A program made the translations under genes and the position numbers. Of a stretch of 64,000 nt of DNA, positions 3,119 to 52,338 are shown one piece after another (position 1 is the first letter of the stretch; each line of letters begins with the position of its first letter). The DNA is from Keratinibaculum paraultunense (GTDB lineage: Bacteria > Bacillota > Clostridia > Tissierellales > Tepidimicrobiaceae): contig NZ_CP068564.1 of the NCBI RefSeq assembly GCF_016767175.1, forward strand, positions 2,170,001 to 2,234,000. Reading direction: 5' to 3'. The notes beneath the pieces are model-generated. The model made no database searches and was not told the origin of the DNA. It saw only the letters and a program-made list of their open reading frames with translations.

Positions 3119-4324
3119 CAAACATCTCTTTTTTCCTTTAAAGAAATTATTAAATTTCAGCAACAATCTAGATTAGAATTAATTTTAGCTAATATTGATG
3201 TCTCTAAACTTGCTAACGAACTCAGAAAACCTTCTAATTCCAAGGGTCCTAAAGGTTATGAGCCTGAGGTTTTTATTTATTCATTAATCGCAATGCAGGT
3301 TGAAAAAATTGATACTATTAAGGATTTAGTTGTCAAGCTTAAAGAAAATCCTGTACTTCGATATTGCTGTGGTTTTGATGTACTTGGTAAGGTTCCATCT
3401 GAATCCACTTTTAGTAGATTTCTTGAAAAACTATCAAACTCTGAATCTCTTGAACAGATTTTTCATGACTTAGTTATTAAAGCTAAAGAACTTGATATCA
3501 TTGACGGAGAGCATATCTCAATAGATTCAACTAAATTGGATTCTTTTGAAGCTGCTAAGCCAAAGAAAAACATTGTTCATGACGGTACTAATCCTAACTG
3601 GGGAATGAAAAAAGATACCAATGGCAACAACATACGATGGTTTGGTTGGAAACTCCATATTCTTTGTGATTCCAAAAGTGAGTTGCCACTAGATCTGCTA
3701 ATCTCCCCAGCTAGTAATTATGATGGTACCATGGCTTTGCCTTTGATAAAGCAATTCTTTGAAAACTATAAAGATACCTTTAAACCTAAATATTATGCTA
3801 TGGATTCTGCCTATGATCTTGATTATGTCTACAAGACCATAATCAACGAATATCAAGGCATTCCAATAATAGCTTACAATCCAAGGGGTAGCTATGCTCC
3901 ACCTGAAGGATTAGATGAAGCTTTTAATCCTATTTGTTCAGGAGGTTACAAGTTAGTTTACTGGGGCAAAGATGGAAATTATTTAAAATTTAGATGCCCT
4001 CATGCCCTAGGACGGTGTGATTGTCCACACGGGATGAACTGGTGCTCAAGCTCTAATTACGGCTATACCCTTAAAGTAAACTATAAAGAAAATCCAAGGT
4101 ATTATGGTTATCCTTTACGATACACAGATGTTTGGAAAAAGCAATATGATAAAAGAACCTCCGTAGAAAGGTGTTTTAGTAGATTAAAATGCTACCTAAA
4201 CCTCGATAATGTAAGGTCTAAAGGTATTAAAAAAGTCAAGGTCCACGCAATATTAAATTGCATAGCACTAATATCAGGTACCATAGCAATAAACACAATG
4301 AAATCTTTGAGTAAAGCAGCTTAA
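3107..4324 (+). CDS. DDE transposase, IS5/IS1182-like
   Basis: The product is about 405 residues and full length, with no frameshift. The N-terminal domain of about 150 residues (ending in a VPSESTFSRFLEKL motif) resembles the DUF772 type. The catalytic region carries candidate acidic residues in ISIDSTKLDS, YYAMDSAYD and the C-terminal RTSVERCFSRLK motif. A Cys-rich insert (CPHALGRCDCPHGMNWC) lies between the second and third. I chose the ATG at 3107 because the GGGGGTG site lies 11-12 nt upstream; the reading frame is open a little further upstream. Confidence 0.85.
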   Translation: MYIRQTSLFSFKEIIKFQQQSRLELILANIDVSKLANELRKPSNSKGPKGYEPEVFIYSLIAMQVEKIDTIKDLVVKLKENPVLRYCCGFDVLGKVPSESTFSRFLEKLSNSESLEQIFHDLVIKAKELDIIDGEHISIDSTKLDSFEAAKPKKNIVHDGTNPNWGMKKDTNGNNIRWFGWKLHILCDSKSELPLDLLISPASNYDGTMALPLIKQFFENYKDTFKPKYYAMDSAYDLDYVYKTIINEYQGIPIIAYNPRGSYAPPEGLDEAFNPICSGGYKLVYWGKDGNYLKFRCPHALGRCDCPHGMNWCSSSNYGYTLKVNYKENPRYYGYPLRYTDVWKKQYDKRTSVERCFSRLKCYLNLDNVRSKGIKKVKVHAILNCIALISGTIAINTMKSLSKAA

Positions 4325-41623: not shown

Positions 41624-43029
41624 TTATTCTATATTTGGATTATTAATAATTCCAATAAATAAAGGTGACCCATCTACCCCTGTTATTGCAAATATAAAAG
41701 GTCTGTTTAATATCATTTCAGCTTTTCCATCTGGCTGTGCTTCTCCACAATAATCTATTTGGGTAAAAGCTGTAGCTTCTACTCCTTTCTCATCAATTGA
41801 TATAGCTGAATTTTGCTTAATACCTGAAATAAATAAGGGTTTAGTATTTGAAAGATTAGTGAAATCTGCTGTTATTTCAAATGCCTTTTCTATTCCTAAA
41901 GTTTCACAAATATCCTTTAACTCAAGACTTGAAGAAAAGTTAATTTAGGAATCTTAAATATAACTTCTCCCATCTGCATTTCATCTGTTGATAATGAATT
42001 TAAAGCTTCATCCAATAATTCTGGATCTGATATAATATCATATGGAGATACTCCTTCATCAGGTAAAATAAATACCATTTGACTACTATTCTTTAAATTA
42101 AGATAAGAAACAGTATATCCATCAACACCTACAAAACTGTGACTACCATAGGTCATATTCATAAAATCAGATTTAACTGTGCTTCCATCTGCAAGATAAA
42201 ATTCATCTTCTATGGTATTCTTAACATTAAAACTATCTACCCATTCATCATAAAAATATATAGTATTTATCAATGTCATTACATCATCTGAATTAAAGGA
42301 AAAATCGTCAGAATTATTTCCAAGCTTCCCACCTGTTTGTTCTGATACCTATTTGCTAATCCTTTTAGGGCTTTCTTTATCATTAAAATCTAGACTAAAA
42401 GAACTAGCATAATATTCTTTTGCCAGTAAATCTAGTAAATCACTATTAAATTCAACATCTTTGTTTAGCCATAAAGAATTTCCAAGACTTAGTTTTCCTA
42501 TTTCATTATGATAATAAAGTCTTCTAAATAATTTCCCCGTTTCACTTCTTACCATTTCAATATTATCCATATTTAATGCTCCTAAAATCTCTTTTTGAGT
42601 ATCTCCATTAGCGGTTTCAGAAGCCATAGATAAAGCCATATATAAACTTATTGGAGAATAAAGACTATTTGTATCTTTGTCTGTTTCCCTTAGTACTAAT
42701 GAAGAAGATTTAATTGAAAAATCCTTAAGGTTTTTTAAGAAACTTTCATCTATATCTTCTCTTCTATTTATCTTTTCATCTAAATCATCAAATTTAATTT
42801 TTGTTGGATACGTTGGTTCTGCTATGGCATAGATATCCATTCTATTACTCTTATTAAAGAAACTATATAGAACTACTACCATAGCTACCATTAGTATAGC
42901 AAATTTAAAAATATTTTTAGATCTTCTTTTATTTACATTTGTATTTAGCATCTTTTCTATGGTATATTCTTTTATAGATTTATCCACTTTAATATCATTA
43001 TTTGCTTCTCTATATAATTTTCTAAACAT
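41624..43029 (-). pseudogene. Membrane-anchored serpin with N-terminal cytosolic region, disrupted
   Basis: The N-terminal 45 or so residues (FRKLYREANNDIKVDKSIKE) are predicted cytosolic, then comes one membrane helix (IFKFAILMVAMVVVLYSFF), then a serpin domain (SPISLYMALSMASETANGDT, FYLADGSTVKSDFM, EKGVEATAF in the reactive loop, RPFIFAITGVDGSPLFIGII). Two lesions: an in-frame TAG where serpins have Trp (ISK-stop-VSEQTGGKLG, at about 42350), and a frameshift near 41940. Its ATG overlaps the sigma-factor stop, so the pair was translationally coupled. The N-terminus plus helix resembles anti-sigma factors. Confidence 0.85.
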
Positions 43030-43498
43030 AATCAATCTCCCCTTTCAGAGATTCCTTTAACATATTTCTTCCCCTATGTAATTGGGATTTCACTGTCCCT
43101 TCTTTTATCCCAAGTGCCTCAGCTATTTCTTTAATAGACATATCTTCATAGTAAAAAAGATGGATCACTGTTCTATATTTTTTGGGCAATTCTAATACAC
43201 TGCAATATACATTACTTCTTTCTTCAATACTAAATATTAGATTATCTATCATAGAAACTGTTTTTTTTAACCATGGAGATTTAAATATATCGTAGCTACA
43301 ATTTATTGTAGTCCTTATAAGCCATGCCTTACAATGCTCATCAGAAACAATTTTTTGATAATTTTTCATGTATCTAATAAAAACCTCCTGAAATACATCT
43401 TCAGCATCTGCTTTGTCCTTAGTCCTTGCCAAGGCTAATTTATATACCATATTTGAATACTGATTGACAATATTTGTAACATGCTCTTTCAAATCCAA
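43022..43498 (-). CDS. ECF-type RNA polymerase sigma factor
   Basis: The product is about 158 residues from a TTG that follows AAAGGTGGTGAT. Region 2 is DAEDVFQEVFIRYMKNYQ and ..CKAWLIRTTINCSYD; region 4 is LPKKYRTVIHLFYYEDMSI with KEIAEALGIKEGTVKSQLHR. It is intact. The next gene encodes a membrane protein with a serpin domain that may act as its anti-sigma factor. A shorter decayed copy lies at 50.9 kb. Confidence 0.9.
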   Translation of the reverse strand: MDLKEHVTNIVNQYSNMVYKLALARTKDKADAEDVFQEVFIRYMKNYQKIVSDEHCKAWLIRTTINCSYDIFKSPWLKKTVSMIDNLIFSIEERSNVYCSVLELPKKYRTVIHLFYYEDMSIKEIAEALGIKEGTVKSQLHRGRNMLKESLKGEIDYV

Positions 43499-43568
43499 AA
43501 TATCACCACCTTTAATATTAATACTATATGAACACAAGAAAGATTGCGTTTATATAATAAAAAATAGC

Positions 43569-47344: not shown

Positions 47345-47538
47345 ATTATACCATTAAATGACAATTTATTATAGTCATAGTCATACACAGGAGACCAAAG
47401 GTCTCCCCTACAACGCATAGCTTGTCCTACTTATGGTATGGTTCACCGTATCAGTTCTACTCACAAAACTTATTTGATGATAAGTATATAATAAAAATAA
47501 AAACCAGTAGGTTTTCTAACATAATAAACCTGCTGGTT
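47345..47538 (-). repeat. Array boundary element, copy D (with REP hairpin and terminator)
   Basis: From left: promoter-like ATTATACCATTAAATGACAA, REP hairpin GGAGACC-AAA-GGTCTCC (47390-47406), GTCCTACT, hairpin 47434-47453 (TGGTATGGT/ACCGTATCA), GTTCTACT, CTTATTTGAT.., and terminator AACCAGTAGGTTT with AAACCTGCTGGTT (47502-47538) ending in the VapC stop codon. Confidence 0.9.
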
Positions 47539-47980
47539 AATCCCCTACATTTTCTATAGCTATTGTTTCTATATTCTCTTGACTACATACACTTTTTAAT
47601 TTAATATCATTTGTAATAAAATAATCAACATTCATAGATATGCCTGTAGCTAAAATTATCGCATCTGGAGTTTTTATATTATAATTAGCCCTAAGCCTTG
47701 ATGTTATATCTGCAATTTTATAATCCACATCAATAATTGATAGATTTGGATAATTGGACAATATTAATTTATACCTATTTTCTAAAAAGACATTATTATA
47801 TTTTTTAGGTTTTACTAGTATTTCCATAAAAGATATTATTGACATAAAAGCTTCATTTTTACCATCTTGTATCTCTATAAAAATTTTCTCCAATTTATCT
47901 GCATAATTAGGATTATCTTCAAAATAATATATAAAACAATTAGTATCCAGTAATATAGTTTCTCTATTGTTTATTCCCAT
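47537..47980 (-). CDS. vapC: PIN-domain toxin (VapC family)
   Basis: The 147-residue PIN-fold ribonuclease has the acidic residues in LLDTNCFIYYFED, ISFMEILV, KTPDAIILATG and FITNDIKLK. VapC toxins cleave tRNA or other RNA. The gene overlaps the antitoxin gene upstream. A second copy with an internal deletion lies at 62557-62781. Confidence 0.9.
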   Translation of the reverse strand: MGINNRETILLDTNCFIYYFEDNPNYADKLEKIFIEIQDGKNEAFMSIISFMEILVKPKKYNNVFLENRYKLILSNYPNLSIIDVDYKIADITSRLRANYNIKTPDAIILATGISMNVDYFITNDIKLKSVCSQENIETIAIENVGD

Positions 47981-48213
47981 GATTCTCTTTCCTCTTTTAT
48001 ATATTCATTAATGTCAATATTGTTCCATAATTCCTTTCCTAATCCTCTCATAACTTTTGCAAAACTATCTGGCTTTTCCATTAATAAGATTTGCCTAGCT
48101 TCTTCGTCATATAACCATATAATTTCAGCACCTGGTCTCAATCCTGCTTTTTTTAATATTTCTTCTGGTATCTTTAAACTTCGGTCCTCATTCAGCTTAG
48201 AAATAAGACTCAT
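47971..48213 (-). CDS. vapB: AbrB/SpoVT-like antitoxin (VapB)
   Basis: About 80 residues with the swapped-hairpin DNA-binding segment KLNEDRSLKIPEEILKKAGL and a C-terminal tail (EYIKEERESWE) for toxin binding. The ATG at 48213 follows GGAAGGAAG. It overlaps vapC, the usual order. Confidence 0.88.
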   Translation of the reverse strand: MSLISKLNEDRSLKIPEEILKKAGLRPGAEIIWLYDEEARQILLMEKPDSFAKVMRGLGKELWNNIDINEYIKEERESWE

Positions 48214-48282
48214 TATTAACACTTCCTTCCTTTTATAGATATCTTATGAGATATTAACTTACATATATTATATCATTATTTT

Positions 48283-50603: not shown

Positions 50604-50661
50604 AATTACCACCCTATATTTATATAGTAATATTATTATATCATATTATCTATTACATATA

Positions 50662-51040
50662 ATGTAAACTATTATTCTATATTTGGATTATTAATAATTC
50701 CAATAAATAAAGGTGACCCATCTACCCCTGTTATTGCAAATATAAACAGTGTATCCATCAGCACCTAAAAACCATAACTACCATAAGTCATATTCATAAA
50801 ATCAGATTTAACTGTGCTTCCATCTGCAAGATAAAATTCATCTTCCATTGTGGTTCTTATGAGCTATGCCTTGCAATGTTCATCAGAAACAATTTTATGA
50901 TAATTTTTCATATATCTAATAAATACTTCCTGAAATACATCTTCTGCATCTGACTTGTTTTTTGTTCTTGCTAAAGCTAATTTATAAACCATATCAGAAT
51001 ATTGATTGATAATATTTGTAACATTCTCTTTCAAATCCAA
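50662..51040 (-). pseudogene. Decayed copy of the sigma/serpin locus
   Basis: From right: the first 58 or so codons of the ECF sigma gene (DAEDVFQEVFIRYMKNYH), a joint after DEHCKA, a piece of the serpin middle (ADGSTVKSDFMNMTYG), a second joint, and the last 20 serpin codons (ITGVDGSPLFIGIINNP). At least two large deletions separate it from the version at 41.6-43.5 kb. Confidence 0.85.
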
Positions 51041-51105
51041 AGATATCAGCACCTTTAATATTAATACTATATGAACACAAGAAAGATTGCGTTTATATAG
51101 TATAA

Positions 51106-51845: not shown

Positions 51846-52094
51846 TTATCTATTGTAAACTTCTCCTCGAGATGCAATTTGAATAATATTTATAATTAAG
51901 TTTTTTTCATCTTTACTAAATACAATTCTATATTTACCAACTCTCAGCATATAATCTTCAGTATCCCCTTGTAGCTTTTTAACATCCCCAGACGGGAGTT
52001 GGTTTATAGCCTTAATTATTCTCAATTGAGTATTTTTATCTAGCCTTTTTAGATACTTAAGACAAGCTTTTTCATATTTAATATTATATTTCAT
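51846..52094 (-). CDS. RelE/ParE-family toxin
   Basis: 82 residues with the RelE pattern ACLKYLKRLDKNTQLRI, YMLRVGKYRIVFSKDEKN and a C-terminal IIQIASRGEVYNR. RelE toxins cleave mRNA on the ribosome. The start overlaps the antitoxin gene by 11 bp. Confidence 0.88.
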   Translation of the reverse strand: MKYNIKYEKACLKYLKRLDKNTQLRIIKAINQLPSGDVKKLQGDTEDYMLRVGKYRIVFSKDEKNLIINIIQIASRGEVYNR

Positions 52095-52338
52095 TTTTAT
52101 TAATCCCTAGTTCTTTCAAAAGGTCATCTTGGTCAATAAATTCACCTTTTAATTTAATGTCTTCCAAATGAAGACGTTCTTCTTCAGTTATATATTCATG
52201 TTCTAGTTCATTTATTTCATTCCATTTATCTTGGGTCTCTTTAAATTTTAAAAACTCAGCCAAGTCAATAACTGTTTTAATATTCTCTGGCCTTAGCTCA
52301 TCTTTTAATATTTTTTCAATTTTTTTTGCAAGGGTCAT
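52084..52338 (-). CDS. Antitoxin of the RelE pair
   Basis: 84 residues, helical: KIEKILKDELRPENIKTVID, then FLKFKETQDKWNEI. The gene is directly upstream and overlapping the toxin, which is the normal order. It resembles DUF2281-type antitoxins. Confidence 0.8.
   Translation of the reverse strand: MTLAKKIEKILKDELRPENIKTVIDLAEFLKFKETQDKWNEINELEHEYITEEERLHLEDIKLKGEFIDQDDLLKELGINKNEI

Follow-up and report, generated by a model that had tools for sequence, protein, structure and literature searches.

We analyzed a 64,000-nucleotide (nt) stretch of the Keratinibaculum paraultunense genome (contig NZ_CP068564.1, positions 2,170,001 to 2,234,000; hereafter the window) and found on its minus strand an overlapping pair of genes that encode an extracytoplasmic function (ECF) sigma factor and a membrane-anchored serpin. 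Serpins of this kind, with a cytosolic N-terminus, one transmembrane (TM) helix and an outer serpin domain, are called TM-serpins below. Our comparison of many such loci indicates that TM-serpins are very probably the anti-sigma factors of the neighboring ECF sigma factors (probability roughly 0.87), and the best explanation of the window copy is that it is decaying and belongs to a family of ECF sigma/anti-sigma pairs with a serpin as the outer domain. By membership these proteins are serpins, while their architecture and gene association class them as anti-sigma factors that match no named family tested. This role had been suggested for the window protein in an initial annotation, and it now has strong comparative-genomic support from three sets of loci, from independent pairs, from the way the N-terminus tracks the sigma clade and from other ectodomains found in the same position.

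The gene pair is real, and an intact copy of it was identified in Clostridium sp. Cult2 (genome G015, locus L005, the same as L188), where the sigma open reading frame spans 663-1202 and the serpin 1195-2619. The sigma factors of L005 and L176 both matched PF04542 (Sigma70_r2) and PF08281 (Sigma70_r4_2) over the Pfam cut-offs, and the window-type regulator, which has only sigma-70 regions 2 and 4, is by its domain content an ECF sigma factor. The window sigma gene begins at a TTG downstream of GGTGGTGAT, a start picked by inspection and from the L005 counterpart, and its ratio of nonsynonymous to synonymous substitution rates (dN/dS) relative to the L005 gene was 0.20. The serpin gene, described in the initial annotation as starting inside the sigma stop codon, does so nearly but not exactly; its ATG (43029-43027) lies 5 nt ahead of the stop codon (43024-43022), giving an 8-nt overlap. 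The described topology of N-terminus, single helix and serpin was also found, with an N-terminus of 42 residues where 45 had been given. Both reported lesions are present: the in-frame TAG replaces a residue that is Trp in L005, L004 and L036, and near 41.94 kb a frameshift moves the rest of the serpin into another frame. PF00079 matched the two serpin parts with 153 and 72 bits (cut-off 27), and no further serpin was detected at E <= 0.001 in this 2.3-Mb, single-contig genome. Since the stretch from the TAG to the frameshift is still strongly conserved relative to L005 (dN/dS 0.08 over 132 codons), the lesions are either recent or sequencing errors. Readthrough of the TAG was rejected because a frameshift is present as well and the intact relatives have Trp. 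A product ending at the TAG would still contain the full N-terminus and the helix.

Searches of other genomes, as the initial annotation had proposed, showed that the arrangement is recurrent both in the class to which the window genome belongs and in the family f37. A serpin match (E <= 0.001) was found in 165 of 391 genomes of the class, and the neighborhoods of the matches listed were classed by script (173 distinct serpins), with starts and helices called simply from start codons and hydropathy. Among these matches, a sigma-like gene was directly upstream (gap -32 to +33 nt) at nine loci (L005/L188, L184, L177, L178, L176, L047, L185, L086 and L162), and in 9/9 the serpin had 33-64 residues before the helix. 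In L177 the sigma factor and the serpin share one frame with two TAG codons between them. The gene preceding the L162 TM-serpin (1436-1933) encodes HTH_3 and sigma region 4 without region 2; it falls outside the ECF definition and is an unusual type of regulator.

We tabulated the serpins in four groups, in this order: long N-terminus and a sigma gene directly upstream, long N-terminus and no such gene, short N-terminus and a sigma gene, short N-terminus and none. For the 162 class serpins with at least 600 nt upstream, among the matches listed, the counts were 8/2/0/152 (P=5e-12; the P values of all three tables ignore relatedness). With a crude lipobox filter, which wrongly removed L184 and L178 for an Ala-Ala-Cys at the helix start, they were 6/1/2/153 (P=8e-9). 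The two exceptions were L088 and L089, the latter lipoprotein-like with a doubtful start, and the 11 of 173 serpins left out for having less than 600 nt upstream were L024, L068, L030, L073, L119, L083, L144, L004, L175, L166 and L036. In f37, part of whose genomes are incomplete, 77 of 300 genomes had a TM-serpin relative at E <= 1e-60. A first f37 set gave 17/2/0/12 (P=6e-7), both long serpins without sigma being later copies in tandem arrays; three of its short serpins come from family f54, and L252, L282, L284, L285, L287, L289 and L290 (duplicate or unrelated) as well as four rows with short upstream sequence were left out. A second set, drawn from 58 regions among the matches listed, gave 28/2/0/27 (P=3e-14) after omission of four regions (two already included, two at contig ends) and four rows. 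Its exceptions were L304 and L339; the latter is a lipoprotein with a wrong start call, counted as an exception here and relabelled as free in the trees and independent pairs. Thus, serpins with a short or no segment before the helix were never directly behind a sigma gene (0/152, 0/12 and 0/27). The starred branches of the serpin-domain tree (106 rows) provided nine independent pairs, in which L004 and L036 were kept, despite their short upstream sequence, as cases against. On average sigma went with the long N-terminus in 8.3 pairs and against it in 0, and 0.7 showed no difference (sign test, median P 0.008, range 0.004-0.016). A chance neighborhood of sigma gene and TM-serpin was rejected by the three tables and these pairs. 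At L254 and L255/L291, two TM-serpins with different reactive loops stand in tandem behind one sigma gene. At L183 (G160, same order), a 44-residue sigma remnant (3351-3482) precedes a broken type-B TM-serpin.

The architecture of TM-serpins is that of anti-sigma factors, directly downstream of a sigma gene and with a cytosolic N-terminus, one helix and an outer domain, and the N-terminus behaved as a module that belongs to the sigma factor. By eye we distinguished at least five N-terminus types: A (window, L005), B (L184, L177, L178), C (L185, L086), D (L176, L047) and E (L162). On a sigma tree of 29 rows, these types required 5 changes, the minimum possible, and the serpin ectodomain 6; type B (17 rows) formed a single clade with support 99/98. 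A 60-row sigma tree again gave the minimum of 5 changes; there, f37 N-termini bearing the Y[KR]xAN motif were classed as A and the remainder as B, a default label that means 'not A'. The window sigma fell in a clade (support 92) with seven f37 sigmas of the Y[KR]xAN type (L301, L313, L336, L343, L345, L346 and L348). On the serpin-domain tree (113 rows), the fused or free state required 20 changes, at least 9 of them imposed by starred branches; type A, scored by itself, required 6. These counts indicate that N-terminus and sigma factor travel together while the serpin heads are exchanged. A profile of the type-B N-terminus gave 32 matches, of which 7 were the query loci, 16 were examined and 9 weak ones were left out. 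The 16 were non-serpin proteins with a type-B-like N-terminus, and 15 of them had a sigma gene directly upstream (exception, L211); no serpin match was found in these sibling loci. Six loci have three genes, a sigma factor, a separate TM protein and a lipoprotein or secreted serpin (L108, L111, L146, L149, L164 and L135, read by eye), and in L164 and L135 the separate TM protein bears a type-B N-terminus. Because the anti-sigma segment and the serpin occur as two proteins in some genomes and as one in others, a functional link between them gains support. L344, which the serpin tree places as sister of L346 (support 98), has lost the sigma gene as well as the start of the N-terminus.

We also compared the window pair with its nearest relatives. 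In the family of the window genome, 4 of 20 genomes had a serpin: the window's own, G015 (L005), G010 (L004) and G008 (L003), the last being lipoprotein-type without a cytosolic segment. A contig scan returned 15 loci; some relics were read by eye. The serpin of L004/L186 is intact and its sigma gene is deleted except for the ends, the first ~29 nt being joined to the last 19 nt; L036/L187, at a contig end, has an intact serpin and only the last 60 nt of sigma. In L198 (Tissierella sp. P1) the serpin is frameshifted and the last 24 nt of sigma are left, and from the start of sigma L199 retains 172 nt and L200 retains 228 nt, each with serpin scraps. As read from these remnants, type A, the subfamily of the window copy, is one that decays repeatedly. 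An intact type-A sigma gene was found only alongside an intact N-terminus and helix (L005 and the window, a number too small for more), as expected if loss of the anti-sigma segment does harm. Between L004 and L036, dN/dS was 1.14 over the 42 codons of the N-terminus and 0.25 over stem and serpin; the N-terminus also gave 0.43 (L005-L036) and 0.64 (L005-window), with too few codons for a claim of relaxation. The element upstream of the window sigma gene looks like an ECF-type promoter. Allowing <=3 mismatches, it matched solely at sigma-serpin loci in G000 (twice, the second at a relic), G010 and G015, and a search of G210 gave 0 matches. Since matches were limited to sigma loci and the relic, we claim no regulon.

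We next considered the outer domain. PF00079 matched L005 with 252 bits and L184, L177, L178, L176, L185, L086, L162 and L088 with 172-317 bits (cut-off 27). An AlphaFold2 model of L005 built from 16 sequences had the serpin fold (predicted local distance difference test, pLDDT, 76; predicted template modeling score, pTM, 0.77), with low confidence at residues 1-43 and loop 427-439, and its best matches in the PDB were serpins, including tengpin and conserpin. Inhibitory serpins have a hinge with Gly at P15 and small residues at P12-P9. With P numbers of our own assignment, the TM-serpins kept the P15 Gly and small P12-P10, as well as the P8 Thr with few exceptions. In 16 aligned serpins no variation was seen at the Glu and Gly of the hinge, at P10 Ala and P8 Thr, or at several Trp, Pro and Phe positions. 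The hinges read GVEATAFT and GVEAVAFT in the type-A serpins of the group that includes the window copy; GVEASAFT, GCEGAAYT and mostly G[VC][TE]AAAYT-like in type B; GTKASAAT and GTEAAALT in type C; GITASAVT in type D; and GTKAAAVT in type E. An AxA motif stands 4-12 residues past the helix in many TM-serpins and is present in type A and many of type B. In 19/23 TM-serpins versus 4/13 lipoprotein serpins (P 0.003) it precedes the first YP-like motif by <=14 residues, an enrichment that is only suggestive, the rows being related. We consider that the serpin domain probably is the sensor of the system.

These data led us to a possible mechanism. The short cytosolic N-terminus would bind and hold the ECF sigma factor, a well-supported step, and the single helix predicted from sequence would place a serpin of putatively inhibitory type, its fold taken from a model, outside the cell. 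An extracellular serine protease would then attack the reactive loop, and insertion of the loop would trap it, as the kept hinge suggests. Taken together, we give these steps an even chance. By analogy with RsiV, the conformational change, or the burden of the captured protease, may expose the stem, often with its AxA resembling a signal-peptidase site, to site-1 cleavage, whereupon a site-2 protease would free the sigma factor. The sigma factor could then switch on the operon that encodes it, which would renew the serpin supply, and probably further defense genes. Protease attack on the loop as the signal, which the initial annotation had put forward, fits the retained hinge and the RsiV precedent; we find it about as probable as improbable, and we infer that sigma release upon protease capture is the best available mechanism.

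Among known systems, compared here from excerpts of the cited papers, RsiV of Bacillus subtilis is by analogy the closest working counterpart. Its helix comprises residues 37-59, signal peptidase cuts between 66 and 67 at an AXA motif, and site-1 cleavage in vitro occurred only with lysozyme (PMC4183432), which RsiV both senses and inhibits (PMC5014341). RsiV/sigma-V and TM-serpins share the cytosolic N-terminus and the one helix; the outer domain of RsiV is enzyme inhibitor and receptor in one, as proposed for the serpin head (PMC4183432, PMC5014341, PMC6066255). An AxA after the helix, a possible counterpart of the RsiV motif, occurs in some TM-serpin types and not in others. They differ in that the outer domains of RsiV, DUF4163 and DUF3298, bind lysozyme, whereas the TM-serpin head is expected to bind serine proteases irreversibly, and neither domain was matched in the TM-serpins scanned. 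RsgI/SigI of Clostridium thermocellum is likewise a clostridial membrane anti-sigma system with outer domains that sense extracellular material, but these bind polysaccharides (PMC3990059, PMC12484212), and the RsgI N-terminal domain (Pfam, NCBIfam) was not matched in the TM-serpins scanned. DUF4179, the domain of another group of Firmicutes anti-sigma proteins (PMC6066255), likewise gave no match there; among 10 sibling proteins scanned, two (L210 and L229) showed a weak likeness below the cut-off. No match to zf-HC2 was seen at E up to 1 in the scan of L005 or up to 0.1 in further loci. The serpin operon of Bifidobacterium breve is protease-inducible through a two-component system (cited in PMC8012564); as in our proposal there is more serpin when proteases are present, but the serpin is the output and stands outside the sensor. 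Cellulosomal and lipoprotein serpins of Clostridia (PMC12484212) belong to the same serpin family; unlike TM-serpins, they have no long cytosolic segment and no direct upstream sigma gene in the loci examined.

Several observations weigh against the anti-sigma reading or the mechanism attached to it. The N-terminus matched none of the curated anti-sigma families searched, the only hits being to NF052375, whose E values of 0.009 and 0.05 fall far short of the cut-off. The hinge of types A and B, with Phe or Tyr at P9 and mostly Val or Cys at P14, is not the commonest inhibitory one; in types C, D and E, P9 is Ala, Val or Leu and the hinges are ordinary inhibitory ones. Free serpins of the same clades also have a bulky P9, which is therefore no mark of the fused serpins. 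Types C, D and E and some of type B have no AxA motif or have it at a distance. Six long serpins have no adjacent sigma gene (L255, L254, L304, L004, L036 and L088), L254 and L255 being later tandem copies without a directly adjacent one. The initial annotation had named intact serpins without a sigma neighbor as evidence against its proposal, and such cases do exist to a mild degree. The scraps of sigma ahead of L004 and L036 identify these as losses and not counter-designs; for L088 and L304, a search for an upstream sigma remnant found no trace. The window's own serpin is broken, and the L004 and L036 serpins are still constrained after sigma loss (pairwise dN/dS 0.17-0.25), indicating that the serpin has a value of its own.

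Such constraint would suit an arrangement in which the N-terminus is an anti-sigma segment and the serpin is mere cargo or effector, kept at its site of action by the anchor and resupplied through the sigma factor under its control, while some other signal, such as proteolysis at the membrane or stem by a dedicated site-1 protease, frees the sigma factor. The three-gene loci speak for it too, since they indicate that a sigma operon may include a serpin as an ordinary gene. We nevertheless consider cargo rather unlikely, as serpins became fused directly to the anti-sigma segment, or lost that fusion, many times (20 changes on the tree) and other ectodomains occupy the same place behind sibling sigmas, as in a sensor slot. 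A serpin domain might instead sense without inhibiting, so that binding of a small molecule or peptide, or release of a ligand by the cleaved loop, frees the sigma factor. Hormone-carrying serpins of animals are a precedent for a ligand-carrying serpin, the bulky P9 and unusual P14 of types A and B would agree with it, and cleaved corticosteroid-binding globulin structures were among the PDB matches of the L005 model, although fold similarity alone says little. This is made improbable by the kept P15, P12-P10 and P8 residues, by the invariant hinge and core positions and by the ordinary inhibitory hinges of types C, D and E. Lastly, the membrane serpin could simply be a target gene of the sigma factor, with no anti-sigma role and an N-terminus that serves only as a signal anchor. 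Adjacency alone is compatible with this, as is the persistence of type-A serpins in L004 and L036 after sigma loss. However, short serpins are never directly behind a sigma gene in the sets tabulated, N-terminus types go with the clade of the sigma factor and recur on unrelated ectodomains, and in L344 the N-terminus is shortened where the sigma gene is gone; we judge a mere target gene highly improbable.

Bacterial serpins are common, with matches in 165 of 391 class genomes, yet few have a known role. A TM-serpin wired to a sigma factor as its anti-sigma would offer a read-out, each pair being a reporter for the protease relevant to its bacterium, and would make directly testable the question of which proteases clostridia sense. 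The RsiV principle of an inhibitor that acts as receptor would then cover serine proteases as well as lysozyme, and sensor and first line of defense would be united in one protein, as they are in RsiV for lysozyme. More tentatively, and at slightly less than even odds, serpins may be one-shot protease receptors, anti-sigma modules having repeatedly gained serpin heads across Clostridia, each with its own loop, so that the attacker is trapped and reported at once. If so, tandem serpin heads behind one sigma factor would feed several protease inputs into one switch. Full-text searches, judged by titles and the beginnings of abstracts and with subscription literature largely outside their scope, returned no report of a serpin anti-sigma factor. 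Excerpts of PMC8233489 mention membrane-anchored prokaryotic serpins and do not contain the word sigma; the word serpin is absent from PMC7406223, a paper on ECF anti-sigma factors.

Table 1. Features of the sigma-serpin loci in the window, with window positions
Feature	Position	Strand	Basis and remarks
Putative promoter, conserved (GCAAYCTTT...ATRTAGTAT)	43521..43547	-	Upstream of sigma gene; alike in L188, L004, L199 and L200 (by eye)
ECF sigma factor gene	43022..43498	-	158 residues, intact; sigma-70 regions 2 and 4; L005 relative over Pfam cut-offs
Membrane-anchored serpin gene, broken (one TAG and one frameshift)	41624..43029	-	Reading frame, PF00079 matches
Cytosolic N-terminus, residues 1-42, proposed sigma-binding segment	42904..43029	-	Type A (Y[KR]xAN motif); predicted from sequence
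Membrane helix, ~residues 43-60	42850..42903	-	Hydrophobicity; helix 43-58 in L005 model
AIA (AxA) motif directly past the membrane on the outer side, candidate signal-peptidase site	42820..42828	-	Also in L005, L004 and L036; putative function by comparison with RsiV
Serpin domain PF00079, interrupted	41624..42723	-	Profile match; fold of intact relative
In-frame TAG	42349..42351	-	Trp at this position in L005, L004 and L036
Hinge and reactive-centre loop (EKGVEATAFTQIDYCG...)	41720..41791	-	Translation; hinge comparison
Second relic of a sigma-serpin locus: promoter, first 62 sigma codons, then serpin pieces	50641..51105	-	

The second relic adjoins a nucleotidyltransferase-like gene (named by eye), and a gene of the same kind follows the serpin remains of L199 and L200 and the serpin of L004. 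Between the small genes of window positions 43800-64000, we noted an intergenic repeat of roughly 60-120 nt in 8 copies and, at 5 places, a hairpin with a AAACCAGTAGGTTT-like stem. The small genes, named by reading, include a VapBC-like pair (47537-48222), a RelBE-like pair (51846-52338), an acetyltransferase and a methyltransferase, and several genes in this part are duplicated. The region looks like an array of exchangeable cassettes, and the stretch ahead of the L004 serpin resembles it.
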